In this document: one piece after another, positions 58,803 through 63,821 of the stretch | Layout: every line of letters starts with the position of its first letter | Numbering within the stretch: the first letter of the stretch is position 1 | DNA from: Deferribacteraceae bacterium | GTDB lineage: Bacteria; Chrysiogenota; Deferribacteres; Deferribacterales; Deferrivibrionaceae | Direction of reading: 5' to 3' | Length of the DNA stretch: 64,000 nt | NCBI GenBank assembly: GCA_020054865.1 | Contig: JAIHAR010000007.1 | Coordinates: 1-64,000, forward strand | Notes under the pieces: generated by a model | Told to the model about the DNA's origin: nothing | What the model saw: the letters and a program-made list of their open reading frames with translations, nothing else | The model's database searches: none | Position numbers and translations under genes: made by a program

Positions 58803-59222
58803 TTGGCAAGGCTGCTGACTATTGACAGATCTCCCCATATTGTTGCGCTTTCCTCAGCGATAGGGATGATAATAGGGTTTTCCCCTTACATTGGATTTCA
58901 TACTGTTCTTGCTATCGGAATTTCGTATTTTTTTAATCTTCCTGTTTACCCTTTGATTCTGGGGGCATATATTACAAATCCTATTACAATTGTTTTTATT
59001 TACGCATTTTGCTATAAAGTTGGACTGATTTTGACCGATACTAATGTTGATATTGTGCTTGACTGGTCAAAACTTAACTGGGATATTATGGTGCACAGTG
59101 TGAAGCAGATTTTTTGGCCTCTTTTTGTAGGGTGTCACCTAATAGGTATTTTGGTGGCGATTGTTACATACTTTGTAGTATACTTTATTATTAAAAAATA
59201 CAAAGGGGTAGTTGTTGGCTGA
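58803..59222 (+). CDS. DUF2062 membrane protein (start uncertain, possibly ATA at 58785)
   Basis: A roughly 140-residue membrane protein with about three hydrophobic segments. SPHIVALSSAIGMIIGFSPY and GAYITNPITIVFIYAF match DUF2062. The first conventional in-frame start is TTG at 58803, but the only ribosome-site-like sequence (AGGGGGGGG, 58772-58780) lies about 20 bases earlier. It suits an ATA at 58785, which would add KFRDR, like the basic N-terminus common in this family. An error in the eight-G run is an alternative explanation. Function is unknown. It overlaps the FlhG-like gene. Confidence 0.82.
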   Translation: MARLLTIDRSPHIVALSSAIGMIIGFSPYIGFHTVLAIGISYFFNLPVYPLILGAYITNPITIVFIYAFCYKVGLILTDTNVDIVLDWSKLNWDIMVHSVKQIFWPLFVGCHLIGILVAIVTYFVVYFIIKKYKGVVVG

Positions 59223-60099
59223 AATAATTGCTATAGCAAGTGGAAAAGGTGGTGTGGGTAAAAGTTTTTTTGCTGCCAATCTTGCGATGTCAATTGCCAA
59301 GAAAGGGGTAAGTGTTTTGCTTGTTGACGGCGACCTTGGTGGAGCAAATTTACATAATTTTGTTGGACTAAAAGCTCCAGGAAAAAGTTTATATAACTTT
59401 ATCAGGGAAAAAATGCCGATTGAAGATGTTATTCTTAAAACACCTGCTAATGTTGATTTTGTGGGAGGTGCTGGTGATGTGCTTGGAATGGCTCACATAA
59501 ATAATTTTGAAAAACTTAAAATTTTAAATTACCTGAAAAGATCTCATTATAAATACGTTATTCTGGATCTTGGAGCTGGTACAAGCTACAATATGATAGA
59601 TTTCTTCAATTTTTCAGAAAAAAAGATACTTGTTATGACGAGCGAACCAACTTCCATTGAAAATTCTTACGGTTTTTTAAAAGTTTCCATTTACAGAAAA
59701 GTAGAGAAGTTTTTAAGCGGGGACAATAGATTTGAGAGTGTTTGCAAGAAGCTTAGAAGTAGAAGCATGAATTATCAGAAGGTAGAAGATATATTGTCAG
59801 ATATAGGTCAAATTAACAAAGATGTGAGAGAAAAAGTTGAGAGCCTTTTAAATGGTTACAAAGTTGGCATTGTGCTGAATATGCTGAAGTTCAAAAAAGA
59901 GCTTAATATATTTTATGGCTTTGAAAATGTATCAAAAAAATATCTTGGCATTACTATTGAAAAAATAGGATTTATACCTTATGATATTGGTGTGAGTGAG
60001 AGTTTGAAAAGGCTATTGCCCTATTACAACAATCTCGAGGATATTTCTTTAAGGGAATTTTTTGATGATGTTAGGGAGCATATATTTGAAAAACTTTAG
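59212..60099 (+). CDS. MinD/ParA-type ATPase, FlhG-like
   Basis: A 295-residue deviant Walker ATPase. The nucleotide site is IAIASGKGGVGKSFFAANLA (residues 8-27 in this numbering). VLLVDGDLGGANLHNFVG and YVILDLGAGTSYNMIDFF follow. The sequence after this resembles FlhG/YlxH more than MinD or ParA, although a flagellum-specific helix is not visible. Start is TTG (59212 or 59215) after AAGGGG. It overlaps the DUF2062 gene and is 9 bases upstream of the CheW-CheZ fusion. A role in positioning flagella or chemotaxis proteins is inferred. Confidence 0.88.
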   Translation: MLAEIIAIASGKGGVGKSFFAANLAMSIAKKGVSVLLVDGDLGGANLHNFVGLKAPGKSLYNFIREKMPIEDVILKTPANVDFVGGAGDVLGMAHINNFEKLKILNYLKRSHYKYVILDLGAGTSYNMIDFFNFSEKKILVMTSEPTSIENSYGFLKVSIYRKVEKFLSGDNRFESVCKKLRSRSMNYQKVEDILSDIGQINKDVREKVESLLNGYKVGIVLNMLKFKKELNIFYGFENVSKKYLGITIEKIGFIPYDIGVSESLKRLLPYYNNLEDISLREFFDDVREHIFEKL

Positions 60100-60108
60100 G
60101 AGCGTACT

Positions 60109-61767
60109 ATGAGTGAACAGCAAAATATCTATATTGAAGACCTAAGTGAGTTGAAGGATGAAAACAGTTTTCAGCTTGTTGGTTTTAAGTTGGGGGATGA
60201 AGAGTACGCCATTGATGTATTGAAAATTCAGGAGATAATAAGGCTCATTGAAATAACTACTGTTCCAAGGACAGACCCATATATACTTGGTGTGATAAAC
60301 TTGCGTGGGAAAGTTATTCCTGTTGTAGATTTAAGAGTGAGATTTGAGCTTGACAGGTCTGATTTTGATAAGAAGACCAGAATAATAGTTGTAAAGTTTG
60401 AGAAAGAGAATATTGGATTTGTTGTAGATGAAGTAACCGAAGTTATAAGGATAGATAAAAGTATTGTTGAGCCTACGCCACCTCTTGTTGGAGCGGTAGG
60501 ACAGGAGTACATACTTGGTATCTGTAAGTACCAGAAAAGACTTATAATTTTACTTGATATAGACAGGGTGGTTTATGATGATGATAGCTTAGCAAGTGAT
60601 CTCAGGAAAAAAATTATAAATGCTCAGGATAAACAAACAGGAGTTTTAGAGCATTCTGCAGAGGAAGAAGATTTGGAAAATGGGGGAACTGAAACTGAAA
60701 TTAAAGATGTTGAAGAGCTGATTGTGGAGGAAAAACAGCAGGACAAGTTTGAGTTAACTGAGCGGGATGATAGTGAAGCTGTTGATAATGAAGTAACAAA
60801 ACAGGAAGATCAGACTGATGAAATTGACGATATTGATAAACTTATTGCAATTGAGTTGGCAAAAAGGGAACAGGAAACAGAAGAGCTTCTAAAAAAGAAA
60901 AAAGATGGGGATAATGCTGAATCTGTAAATGATCCAGTAGAGGACATTTTAAATGATGCTTTAAATCAGGCAAACTCTAAGATTTCTCCAGAAGTAAGCC
61001 ATGTTGATCAGGATGACCTTGATAGGCTTATAGCCGAAGAACTTGCTAAAAGAGAAAAAGAGACAGAGGAGCTTTTAAGAAGGAAAAAAGAAGAGGAAAA
61101 AAAAAAGATAAATGAAGCTGAGACTGAGCAGGTAGAGGCCAAAACCGAAGAAAAAAAAGATGAAATTGTAATAGAACGGGACTCTCTTAAAGAGCTCAAA
61201 GAGCTTGCATCAAAAATAATAAATGGAGAAACCAAAGATATAGATATAAATATAAAAGGTGAAATCGGAGAACTTTTAAAGCTTCTTATAGACACAAAAG
61301 ATAAGCTGGATGTTCTTGAACCTTCCGTTGAAGACTCGAGCAAAGATGTTCCATTTATAGCTAAAACTCTTGAAAATGTTAATGATTACACTGAAAAGGC
61401 AACCTTGAATCTTATGGAGGCTGCCGATAAGATGTCAGGCTTTTTTTCTGAGCTTAACGAAAGTATGAGTAATATTGAAAAAATTATCCAGAAAGGGGAC
61501 ATGGAAAAGTTTGAACTGTCGATAAATGAAGTTGAGTCAAGGCTTGCAGAGGCTGAGAATCTTGGATTTAATATATTGCAAGCCCTCGAGTTTCAGGACA
61601 TAACAGAACAAAAAGCGAGAAAGGTGATAAAAAAGGTTGAAGAGATAGGTGTACGCCTTGGTACAATTTTGGGCTATGCAAAAATTCAATCTACCAATGC
61701 AGGTGCAGAATCACAAGCTTCTCAGGAGGACATAGATAAATTACTTGGGGAATTTGGATTGAGTTAA
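60109..61767 (+). CDS. CheW-CheZ fusion protein with repeated acidic linker segments
   Basis: A 552-residue cytoplasmic protein. Residues about 20-160 are a CheW adaptor domain (LVGFKLGDEEYAIDVLKIQE, VPRTDPYILGVINLRGKVIP). A long charged linker carries two related segments, about 236-264 and 298-327, of the form DDIDKLIAIELAKREQETEE. Residues about 415-525 resemble the CheZ phosphatase bundle, with the active-site stretch ALEFQDITEQKARK (Asp497 and Gln501 match Asp143 and Gln147 of E. coli CheZ). The C-terminus SQEDIDKLLGEFGL matches a CheZ-type CheY-binding tail. It would join kinase coupling and CheY-P dephosphorylation. GGAGCG precedes the ATG. Confidence 0.88.
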   Translation: MSEQQNIYIEDLSELKDENSFQLVGFKLGDEEYAIDVLKIQEIIRLIEITTVPRTDPYILGVINLRGKVIPVVDLRVRFELDRSDFDKKTRIIVVKFEKENIGFVVDEVTEVIRIDKSIVEPTPPLVGAVGQEYILGICKYQKRLIILLDIDRVVYDDDSLASDLRKKIINAQDKQTGVLEHSAEEEDLENGGTETEIKDVEELIVEEKQQDKFELTERDDSEAVDNEVTKQEDQTDEIDDIDKLIAIELAKREQETEELLKKKKDGDNAESVNDPVEDILNDALNQANSKISPEVSHVDQDDLDRLIAEELAKREKETEELLRRKKEEEKKKINEAETEQVEAKTEEKKDEIVIERDSLKELKELASKIINGETKDIDINIKGEIGELLKLLIDTKDKLDVLEPSVEDSSKDVPFIAKTLENVNDYTEKATLNLMEAADKMSGFFSELNESMSNIEKIIQKGDMEKFELSINEVESRLAEAENLGFNILQALEFQDITEQKARKVIKKVEEIGVRLGTILGYAKIQSTNAGAESQASQEDIDKLLGEFGLS

Positions 61768-61957: not shown

Positions 61958-62131
61958 ATGGAAGTTTTGGAAAGACTTTGCAGTTTGGAAGAAAAAATTG
62001 ATAGATTATTGATGGAAAATGAAAGGTTGCTCAAAGAGAATGATGAGCTGAAAAAGAAGGTAGAACAACTAATTAATGAAAGAGAGGAAGTTGCCGAAAA
62101 AATTGAAAAACTTTTAAACAGTTTGCCTTAG
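61958..62131 (+). CDS. small coiled-coil protein, ZapB-like
   Basis: A 57-residue protein, nearly all one coiled coil: heptads of Leu/Ile run through LCSLEEKIDRLLMENERLL and LKKKVEQLINE. Size, composition and position just upstream of zapA fit the ZapB-like cell-division proteins. ZapB joins ZapA to form a layer inside the Z ring. There is no good ribosome site before the ATG, and the predicted transcription start coincides with it, so the mRNA may be leaderless. Family call is by pattern and context only. Confidence 0.7.
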   Translation: MEVLERLCSLEEKIDRLLMENERLLKENDELKKKVEQLINEREEVAEKIEKLLNSLP

Positions 62132-62142
62132 GGAGTTGGCTT

Positions 62143-62412
62143 TTGCAAGTTTCTGATGTTTATATTTATGGTAATAAATACAGATTGAAAACGGACATGA
62201 GTGAGGAGACGGTTACATCCATTGCTAATTTCGTTGATGGAAGGATGAGAGAGATACAGAGCAATATGAATGTGTTGACGACTTCGAAAATTGCTGTGAT
62301 GGCTGCTTTTGATATTGCTGCTGAATATTTGATGCTGAAGAAGGACTTAGACAGAAGTATTGATAAAATTAGTGAGTTAGAAGAAAAAATAAATAGTGTA
62401 TTAAAAGGGTAG
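62143..62412 (+). CDS. zapA: cell division protein ZapA
   Basis: An 89-residue ZapA. SDVYIYGNKYRLKTDMSEE, VDGRMREIQ and KIAVMAAFDIAAEYLMLKKD match the family's dimerisation head and coiled-coil tail. ZapA bundles FtsZ filaments. The start is TTG (62143) with GGGAG 7 bases upstream. Its stop codon overlaps the first base pairs of the 6S RNA. Confidence 0.9.
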   Translation: MQVSDVYIYGNKYRLKTDMSEETVTSIANFVDGRMREIQSNMNVLTTSKIAVMAAFDIAAEYLMLKKDLDRSIDKISELEEKINSVLKG

Positions 62413-62596
62413 CCCCTGAATTGTTCGTGATGAAGTAGGAAATTTGGAGCCAACACCTCTAAAATATGGGATGATACGAGGTGTGGTGTGCAGGCCTGCC
62501 ATGTAGCAGGAAGCCTAAAGCACCTGTGATTCCCTAAAACCTGGTTAGCCAGGGCTGCAAATGGACTATGAACACGGCAATTCGGGGGCTTTTTTG
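62411..62596 (+). ncRNA. ssrS: 6S RNA
   Basis: About 186 bases with no coding frame. The ends form a 13-base-pair closing stem, AGCCCCTGAATTG (62411-62423) with CAATTCGGGGGCT (62578-62590), followed by a T run, so the stem doubles as terminator. Inside are several further hairpins on both arms, including ACACCTC/GAGGTGT and GCCTGC/GCAGG, around open central regions. This rod-like shape and the location directly after zapA are typical of 6S RNA, which traps sigma-70 RNA polymerase. The covariance-model check was not possible here. Confidence 0.8.
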
Positions 62597-62615
62597 TATA
62601 TAAAGTTTGAGTGAT

Positions 62616-63821
62616 ATGAGACTGTATGAGATTATTGAGCCAGAAGATATAAATGATATTGTAGGTCAGGAGCACCTGCTGGGTGACAATACCCCTTTGC
62701 GCAAAATGATTGATAAGGGGGAGTTTGAATCATTGATTTTTGTGGGCCCACCGGGGACAGGGAAGACAACCGTTGCAAAACTTATAGGCAAAAAGCTTTC
62801 TTTGCCTTTTTATCGTTTGCACGGAGCTGCTACAAGTGTTAATGAAATAAAGAATATTACAGAGTCATCTAAGCATTATGGGCGTCCATCAATTATTTTT
62901 ATCGATGAAGTTCATAGATTTAGCAAGACACAACAGGATTTGTTGCTGAAGGTAATCGATGAGAAACACTCATACATAATTGGGGCATCCACCGAAAATC
63001 CTTACTTTAGTCTAACTCCTGCAATGAGGTCGAGAAGTTTTATATTTGAATTTAAAGCTTTGAATGAGGATGCTTTGTCGAAAATATTGAATAAAGCGAC
63101 TTTTGCCATAATGGAAAAATATGGTGTAAAAAATGTTGAGTGCCAGAATAGAGAATATTTTATTCAAAATTGCGGTGGGGACGCAAGAAGAATGCTTAAG
63201 CTTTTTGAAACAGCTGCCAGCCTGGGTGAAATCAAAGATTCAAATCTGTTTATTACAGTGGATAAAATCGAAGAGCTGACCCAATATTCCGTTTACTCAA
63301 AAGATGAACACTACGATTTGCTGTCAGCAATGATAAAAAGTATAAGAGGCAGCAATCCGGATGCAGCGCTTGTCTGGTGTTTTAAGCTGATAAATTGTGG
63401 TTTTTCCCCTGAAGAGATTTTTAGAAGACTGTATATTTCAGCATCTGAGGATATAGGGAATGCATATCCTGATGCTGTTACTTTTGTAAATTCTGCGTTT
63501 AATGGTTTTTTAAACGTTGGAGTCCCGGAAGGTTACATAATACTTGCTCATGCTGTTACATTTCTGGCTTCTTGTCCTAAAAGTAACAGAAGCTATGAGG
63601 CCTATAAAAGGGTTAAAGAGTATTTGAAAAAGAATGACCCCTATCCCCCTGCAAATATTCGCCATAATCCCAAGGGGTACAAATATCCCTTTGAAACTGG
63701 CGAGTTTGTAAAGCAGACATATTTTGAAGGCAGTGAAAAATTTTATAGTCCTTCAGAATATGGATTTGAGATAAAAATCAGGGACAGGTTAAAAAGGCTT
63801 TGGGGCGAGAATGAGTTCTAA
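62616..63821 (+). CDS. rarA: replication-associated recombination protein A (MgsA/RarA)
   Basis: A 401-residue AAA+ ATPase. VGQEHLLGDNTPLRKMI, the Walker A FVGPPGTGKTTVAKLIG, IIFIDEVHRFSKTQQD and the clamp-loader-like IGASTENPYFSLTPAMRSRS are diagnostic. The C-terminal tetramerisation part has RGSNPDAALVW and RRLYISASEDIGNAYPDA. The frame can start at TTG 62607 or ATG 62616; I prefer the ATG. It lies between 6S RNA and the 5-formyltetrahydrofolate cyclo-ligase gene, which it overlaps by 11 bases. Confidence 0.93.
   Translation: MRLYEIIEPEDINDIVGQEHLLGDNTPLRKMIDKGEFESLIFVGPPGTGKTTVAKLIGKKLSLPFYRLHGAATSVNEIKNITESSKHYGRPSIIFIDEVHRFSKTQQDLLLKVIDEKHSYIIGASTENPYFSLTPAMRSRSFIFEFKALNEDALSKILNKATFAIMEKYGVKNVECQNREYFIQNCGGDARRMLKLFETAASLGEIKDSNLFITVDKIEELTQYSVYSKDEHYDLLSAMIKSIRGSNPDAALVWCFKLINCGFSPEEIFRRLYISASEDIGNAYPDAVTFVNSAFNGFLNVGVPEGYIILAHAVTFLASCPKSNRSYEAYKRVKEYLKKNDPYPPANIRHNPKGYKYPFETGEFVKQTYFEGSEKFYSPSEYGFEIKIRDRLKRLWGENEF

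Follow-up and report, generated by a model that had tools for sequence, protein, structure and literature searches.

The gene at positions 60,109 to 61,767 of the window, by which we mean the whole 64,000 nucleotide stretch of Deferribacteraceae DNA that was analysed, joins a CheW-type array adaptor to a CheZ-type phosphatase, and raises the question of whether such a locus specifies one chemotaxis protein or two. An earlier note, made by a model from the letters of the sequence, described a single fusion that could hold several CheY-P molecules at the receptor array and dephosphorylate them at the source. The fusion and its conserved catalytic residues are borne out by comparison with orthologues, but the picture of a single protein missed a frame-shifting run of adenines, on account of which the gene probably has two products. 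The explanation that we favour, and hold with reasonable confidence, is programmed slippage at this conserved A10 run, through which one gene would yield two chemotaxis proteins and so set the amount of phosphatase in the array.

Domain composition of the fusion protein

60109..61767, + strand: cheW-(repeats)-cheZ fusion gene, 552 amino acids (open reading frame call and orthologues)
60172..60576, + strand: CheW domain, residues 22-156 (Pfam E 1e-39 and Foldseek)
61258..61719, + strand: CheZ domain, with the Asp497 codon at 61597-61599 and the Gln501 codon at 61609-61611 (profile match)
61720..61761, + strand: C-terminal CheY-binding-like peptide, residues 538-551, SQEDIDKLLGEFGL, with a predicted helix at 539-548 (alignment, motif and model)

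The 552 amino acid open reading frame gives Pfam matches to both CheW and CheZ, in agreement with the earlier reading of adaptor and phosphatase in one protein. The two-SH3 fold of CheW is identified by Pfam and Foldseek alike, the best Foldseek matches of the full model being the CheW structures 2qdl, 8c5v and 6s1k (TM to target 0.80-0.88 among the top hits). For CheZ, residues 384-537 score 28 bits (E 2.4e-6), slightly below the Pfam cut-off of 30.7, and a search of the protein against NCBIfam returned no CheZ match. Several orthologues score above the Pfam cut-off, and a profile of 21 orthologous CheZ regions matches the E. coli CheZ structure 1KMI (E 9e-7), aligning Asp497 and Gln501 of the fusion with the catalytic Asp143 and Gln147. 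The conservation previously claimed for these two residues is confirmed: their equivalents are invariant in an alignment of 24 orthologues, and the pair, whose loss in orthologues had been named as a ground for doubt, is kept in 43 of the 44 CheZ-bearing loci. The exception is a MAG (G029, locus L055), which keeps CheW and one repeat but has lost the A-run along with both the tail and the catalytic motif.

The AlphaFold model, of low confidence overall (mean pLDDT 65, with 83-89 in the repeat helices), comprises a CheW barrel, predicted helices at residues 240-265, 276-292 and 301-339, a CheZ-type hairpin formed by helices 385-462 and 465-530, and a tail helix at 539-548. The structure 1KMI is not among the top 50 Foldseek matches, probably because the long hairpin helices of this low-confidence monomer are uninformative.

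The likeness of the tail to the CheY-binding peptides of CheZ and FliM, also proposed in the note, is found within the same genome: its SQEDIDKLL is nearly identical to the SQEEIDALL at the N-terminus of the organism's own FliM. That FliM begins with MADILSQEEIDALLS and the organism's separate CheZ ends with NQDIVDALLKEFGS, so the fusion tail SQEDIDKLLGEFGL fits the local style of CheY-binding peptide. A tail of the LLx[DE][FY]G[LF] type, forming a putative CheY-binding helix, is kept in nearly all orthologues and lost in G029; its acidic-I-D part is missing in genera g14 and g15. The genome also has a flagellar locus, in the order fliM, cheY, cheZ, cheA, and a separate CheW, and the fusion therefore adds to a complete pathway. 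The natural inference is that its phosphatase would be placed at receptor arrays through CheW.

Downstream of the fusion gene, a 57 amino acid coiled-coil open reading frame (MEVLERLCSLEEKIDRLLMENERLLKENDELKK...; window 61958-62131), possibly ZapB-like, lies just upstream of zapA (62143-62412), and a 6S RNA (RF00013, 92.6 bits; window 62410-62592) lies between zapA and a RarA-like gene (62607-63821).

Distribution in the Deferribacterota

The survey covered 51 genomes of the Deferribacterota, all of which gave a protein match, in some cases to CheW only. The combination of CheW, repeat and CheZ, for which the note had suggested that other genomes be searched, occurs as a fused or split gene in 45. 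Three genomes in which it is absent (G014, G016 and G049) are exactly those with no detectable FliM; G014 is taken to be Flexistipes sinusarabici, which has been described as non-motile, and G049 is only 64% complete. Two genomes of family f9 (G004 and G005) encode the CheW protein without CheZ, and no CheZ was found genome-wide in either, while G031 gave a partial match only. Judged by gene content, the gene is common to flagellated Deferribacterota and co-occurs with flagella. A scan of genome contigs with the whole protein returned only one Deferribacterales MAG carrying the fusion and one unrelated CheW.

Linker repeats and the adjacent MinD-like gene

60817..60906, + strand: linker repeat 1, residues 237-266, DEIDDIDKLIAIELAKREQETEELLKKKKD, with a predicted helix at 240-265 (motif, alignment and model)
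60934..60984, + strand: conserved inter-repeat helix, residues 276-292, VEDILNDALNQAN... (alignment and predicted helix)
61003..61092, + strand: linker repeat 2, residues 299-328, VDQDDLDRLIAEELAKREKETEELLRRKKE, with a predicted helix at 301-339 (motif, alignment and model)
59212..60099, + strand: MinD/ParA-like ATPase gene directly upstream of the fusion (Pfam CbiA/ParA and adjacency)
58803..59222, + strand: DUF2062 protein gene, the upstream neighbour in most loci whose flank extends there

The linker between CheW and CheZ is acidic. The motif [DE][ILV]DxL[IL] occurs at residues 241, 303 and 541 of the fusion; shuffled sequences would lead one to expect 0.03 occurrences in the linker, where there are two (P = 0.00025). 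Aligned to each other, the linker segments score 104, against 50 +/- 8 in shuffled linkers. The pair of segments with a [DE]IDxL[IL]-type pattern is as the note had described it, but the six-residue motif is part of a larger unit of about 24-30 amino acids, with the consensus xExDDLDxLIAxELAKRExETEELxKKKK, that is conserved well past it. The strongest conservation falls on E-L-x-x-R-E-x-E, which is not part of the FliM/CheZ-type motif. In the 24-orthologue alignment, every invariant column from residue 165 to residue 415 belongs to one of the two repeats (D243 and E256; D305, I308, E311, L312, R315, E316 and E318). Orthologues have from one to three or more copies, and a search of the window's genome found none outside the fusion gene. 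In G019 (L067), G036 (L051) and G037 (L054), the stretch from the A-run to CheZ is expanded by tandem repeats (EDLEDILEETEEVVEEDVIDEP... and LLDTADSLLDTADS...).

According to the earlier note, repeats and tail could together retain several CheY-P at the array, to be dephosphorylated on the spot. The shuffles, by which the linker motif is not explained by chance, and the similarity of the tail to the organism's own FliM N-terminus both favour this; yet the conservation of the repeats is centred on ELxKRExET, which is missing from the FliM and CheZ peptides, the tails of g14 and g15 lack the acidic-I-D part, and a similar unit is present in G004, an f9 relative in which no CheZ was detected genome-wide. 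From the motif, CheY docking by the linker repeats is plausible, and the holding of several CheY-P at the array we would advance only tentatively.

A different partner is suggested by the neighbouring gene. The MinD-like gene, the stop of which overlaps the ribosome-binding site of the fusion in the window, is adjacent, upstream and co-directional at every locus whose flank extends that far, across all families that have the gene, and it is also upstream in the f9 relatives whose CheW protein lacks CheZ. Its product has a divergent second half and is a candidate array-positioning protein. That this neighbour is constant points to an ATPase with a positioning role, like that of ParC towards the CheW-like ParP, and the linker repeats might then dock or activate the ATPase, which would position arrays via its CheW-bearing partner as in the ParP/ParC pair of Vibrio. 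Within the repeats, an invariant Arg falls in the predicted helix, and short basic helices often trigger MinD/ParA ATPases. In addition, G004 keeps a repeat-like unit, GIDEMIAMELALREKAMAE, in a genome with no CheZ detected; the CheW protein of this genome (L044) also contains long TDAS-type low-complexity repeats. There is precedent in ParP, which connects arrays to the ParA-like ParC, and a genetic link to a ParA-type ATPase is likewise found at all fusion loci that reach so far. Against this, ParP has a ParC-binding N-terminus and a C-terminal CheW/CheA-P5-like AIF domain, the reverse of the fusion with its N-terminal CheW domain, and the first half of each repeat is like the CheY-binding peptides of FliM and CheZ. 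Docking of the neighbouring ATPase may be regarded, on this comparative evidence, as a serious rival to CheY docking by the repeats; we consider it a real possibility, short of one that we would assert.

A conserved adenine run at the repeat/CheZ junction

61097..61106, + strand: A10 run, GAA AAA AAA AAG, the proposed slippage site (rarity and conservation)

The run lies right behind repeat 2, between the repeats and CheZ. Only three A10 runs, the junction included, are present in the 2.11 Mb genome of the window, and genomes elsewhere in the phylum have from 0 to 34 matches each. Of the 45 genomes that have the gene, 43 carry at least ten A at the junction itself, and these represent 17 of 19 genera and all nine families. 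The run is mostly A10, in the register xAA AAA AAA AAx, though lengths of A10-A14 in a different register also occur. A conserved A/T run of at least nine at a frame transition, as looked for in slippage genes, is accordingly present in these 43 of 45 genomes. It is retained at 51-55% GC, and in the most distant family, f10 (GC 48-55%), it occurs in two of three genomes. Many bacteria avoid runs of nine or more within coding sequence. The product of the per-genome chances of an A10 is not used as evidence, as the genomes share ancestry and the value, far too small, has no literal meaning. The residues around the run vary (EKKN, EKKK, QKKK, SKKKI, NKKKK), as does the register, and the run persists; because it remains constant while its amino acid context changes, selection appears to act on the DNA or nucleic acid rather than on the protein. 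One fusion, that of G001, has no A-run at all, so that such a run cannot be a universal requirement.

A second A10 run of the window's genome is located within a recF gene (L074; G000:C63:16296-16305). In families f5 and f7 (L025, L034, L056, L070, L019 and L068), a second run of A9-A11 directly follows repeat 1, at around CDS 760-800; slippage there would give CheW with one repeat only.

Fused and split reading frames

61109..61115, + strand: post-slippage stops, TAA at 61109-61111 (one A lost, 333 amino acids) and TGA at 61113-61115 (one A gained, 335 amino acids)

Where the gene is fused, each of the two other frames meets a stop 0-5 codons from the run, except in G038, in which one of them is open for 14 codons. 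Compared with other positions in the same genes, such stops are concentrated near the run (Fisher p ~6e-7 by genera, using medians, and ~1.6e-5 by families, values from which shared ancestry has not been removed), and they are made of different bases in different lineages.

The split state is found in nine genomes from three families (genus g5 of f5, genera g10 and g11 of f6, and genus g13 of f7). In these, the frame encoding CheW and the repeats stops 1-3 codons past the run, and CheZ lies in another frame, open through the run. Adding or removing one A at the run restores a continuous fusion of 543-752 amino acids in seven of the eight split genomes tested, the exception being G018, which has further stops in CheZ. 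The CheZ frame is stop-free for 32-73 codons from the run in five lineages (joint P ~1e-7); the first starts in this frame are mostly TTG and show no obvious Shine-Dalgarno sequence, while that of G032 does not come until within the CheZ domain. With an open frame and such starts, the most natural reading is that translation of CheZ passes through the run. Defined products are consequently predicted in the other frames in both states, through near stops in fused genomes and an open CheZ frame in split ones, and the split genomes keep the catalytic pair. The G018 locus (L066) has A11 at the junction as well as an additional A9 run and stops in CheZ; slippage might occur at this extra run too, or the gene may be decaying.

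At least three changes between the fused and split states are required on the tree, and four on the best tree. The state is constant within genera represented by several genomes, all four g13 genomes and all three g5 genomes being split, and the finished genome of Denitrovibrio acetiphilus (Sanger plus 454) is split with A14. Genera g11 and g13 still have a run of exactly A10, from which it follows that their flips came from indels elsewhere and that the run persists under either genomic frame. These observations also speak against sequencing error. As a general explanation of the split state, assembly error was rejected, since the state is constant within genera and finished genomes are included.

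These patterns bear on two explanations that dispense with slippage. The gene might be an ordinary constitutive CheW-CheZ fusion, with the A-run a lysine-codon accident in an AT-rich genome and the split genes decaying or mis-assembled. It is indeed uninterrupted in most genomes, its linker is lysine-rich, and the CheZ of G018 has extra stops. This explanation seems improbable, however, given that A10 is very rare genome-wide yet present in almost every orthologue, even where GC reaches 51-55%, that the split state is common to whole genera (g13 and g5) with a finished Sanger/454 genome among them, and that split genomes keep both the catalytic pair and a CheZ frame open to the run. Alternatively, changes of run length in the DNA might switch cells between the fused and split forms by phase variation, as a homopolymer of 10-14 and the occurrence of both states among relatives could suggest. 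State and length are nevertheless constant within genera (all ten g15 orthologues have A10, and all four in g13 are split with A10), the flips in g11 and g13 did not arise from the run, and slippage into either frame would terminate the product immediately, a feature shared with dnaX. Phase variation was therefore rejected as the main explanation, and we regard any such role as very improbable.

Proposed slippage and its consequences

Programmed slippage, the preferred explanation, has itself to be distinguished from programmed ribosomal frameshifting on A_AAA_AAA/AAG as the source of two products. Ribosomes also shift on A-rich heptamers, and GGAG-like sequences occur upstream of the run in some species. 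The downstream hairpin, though, is inconsistent between species (z-scores -3.9 to +1.7), with neither a conserved stimulatory structure nor a conserved internal Shine-Dalgarno sequence found; a run of at least ten exceeds what ribosomes need; and both +1 and -1 shifts are used across genomes, as expected from heterogeneity of run length in the mRNA. Frameshifting by the ribosome appears unlikely, and RNA polymerase is the most likely agent, as a run of at least ten suffices for it and no consistent structure lies downstream.

Under programmed slippage, unslipped reading in the window's genome would give the long form, with CheW, a linker containing two helical docking repeats, CheZ and the CheY-binding tail, and slippage by +1 or -1 A would give a short form of 333-335 residues, with CheW and both repeats but no phosphatase. 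The roles would be exchanged in relatives where the genome frame specifies the short form, slippage there yielding the long one. As the CheW domain joins the receptor array, the long form would place CheZ there covalently, and the short form would compete for the same CheW positions without bringing phosphatase; since both take the same positions, the slippage rate, and with it the ratio of forms, would fix the density of phosphatase in the array. That slippage occurs, and by RNA polymerase, is probable; the entry of both proteins into the array and the ratio model are inferred from the sequences.

Several observations weigh against this account. The fusion of G001 has no run, the alternative frame of G038 is open for 14 codons, lysine-rich linkers in AT-rich genomes also produce long A-runs, several relatives have the second A-run behind repeat 1, the sequence of events and the direction of selection are deduced from about nine families that share ancestry, and the separate CheZ gene beside cheY means that the fusion is not the sole phosphatase. 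A more extensive version, in which RNA polymerase slippage throughout the phylum sets an array ratio between a ParP-like adaptor (CheW with helices docking the MinD-like protein) and its phosphatase-bearing counterpart from the same DNA, is rather unlikely as a whole; if true, the ratio could respond to conditions that alter polymerase slippage.

If programmed slippage is correct, a frame that is stable within genera yet evolutionarily flippable can encode either product, the other being obtained by slippage. It would also permit a direct test of how much in-array phosphatase is needed, as the ratio could be locked by a small number of synonymous changes. The feature is easily missed, because annotation pipelines would report a split version as a pseudogene or as two separate genes.

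Comparison with known systems

Programmed slippage has been documented in few bacterial genes outside insertion sequences. No chemotaxis gene was found in the main texts of a frame-transition survey and a slippage survey or in part of a recoding review, and the Deferribacterota genome papers examined contain no description of the gene. Likewise, a CheW-CheZ fusion was not found under that name in the main texts of openly accessible papers. The locus may thus represent a type of programmed-slippage gene not previously described for chemotaxis, on a phylum-wide CheW-CheZ fusion, although an earlier database listing is possible.

The closest parallels in form come from other processes. In dnaX of Thermus thermophilus, transcriptional slippage makes tau and gamma, and both non-zero frames stop near the A/T run; the fusion gene similarly has a homopolymer inside one open reading frame, near stops in both other frames and, as predicted here from sequence, a long and a short product. 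It differs in encoding a chemotaxis adaptor-phosphatase rather than a polymerase subunit, and in that the slipped form would be the long one in several lineages. In tssM, slippage on A11 makes two length variants that are both needed. Citrobacter rodentium tssM1 and Yersinia tssM3 share with the fusion an A-run, two length variants and a genome frame that is short or long according to species, but the arrangement is sporadic there (two species) and conserved across a phylum here.

Among chemotaxis systems, CheA-short of E. coli recruits CheZ to the receptor array, so that in both cases a CheY phosphatase would be found at the array and a short product of a chemotaxis gene is involved; in the fusion, by contrast, a covalent link to CheW takes the place of recruitment, and slippage, not a second start codon, would be the source of the short product. 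Vibrio ParP and ParC resemble the present pair in combining a CheW-like array-integrating protein with a ParA/MinD-type ATPase, while the fusion has its CheW domain at the N-terminus and a phosphatase attached, and its pairing is suggested by gene adjacency. Finally, CheV (CheW-receiver) and the CheA-CheC/CheX fusions also attach a signal-modifying domain to an array protein, but the domain fused here is CheZ, rather than a receiver or CheC/CheX.
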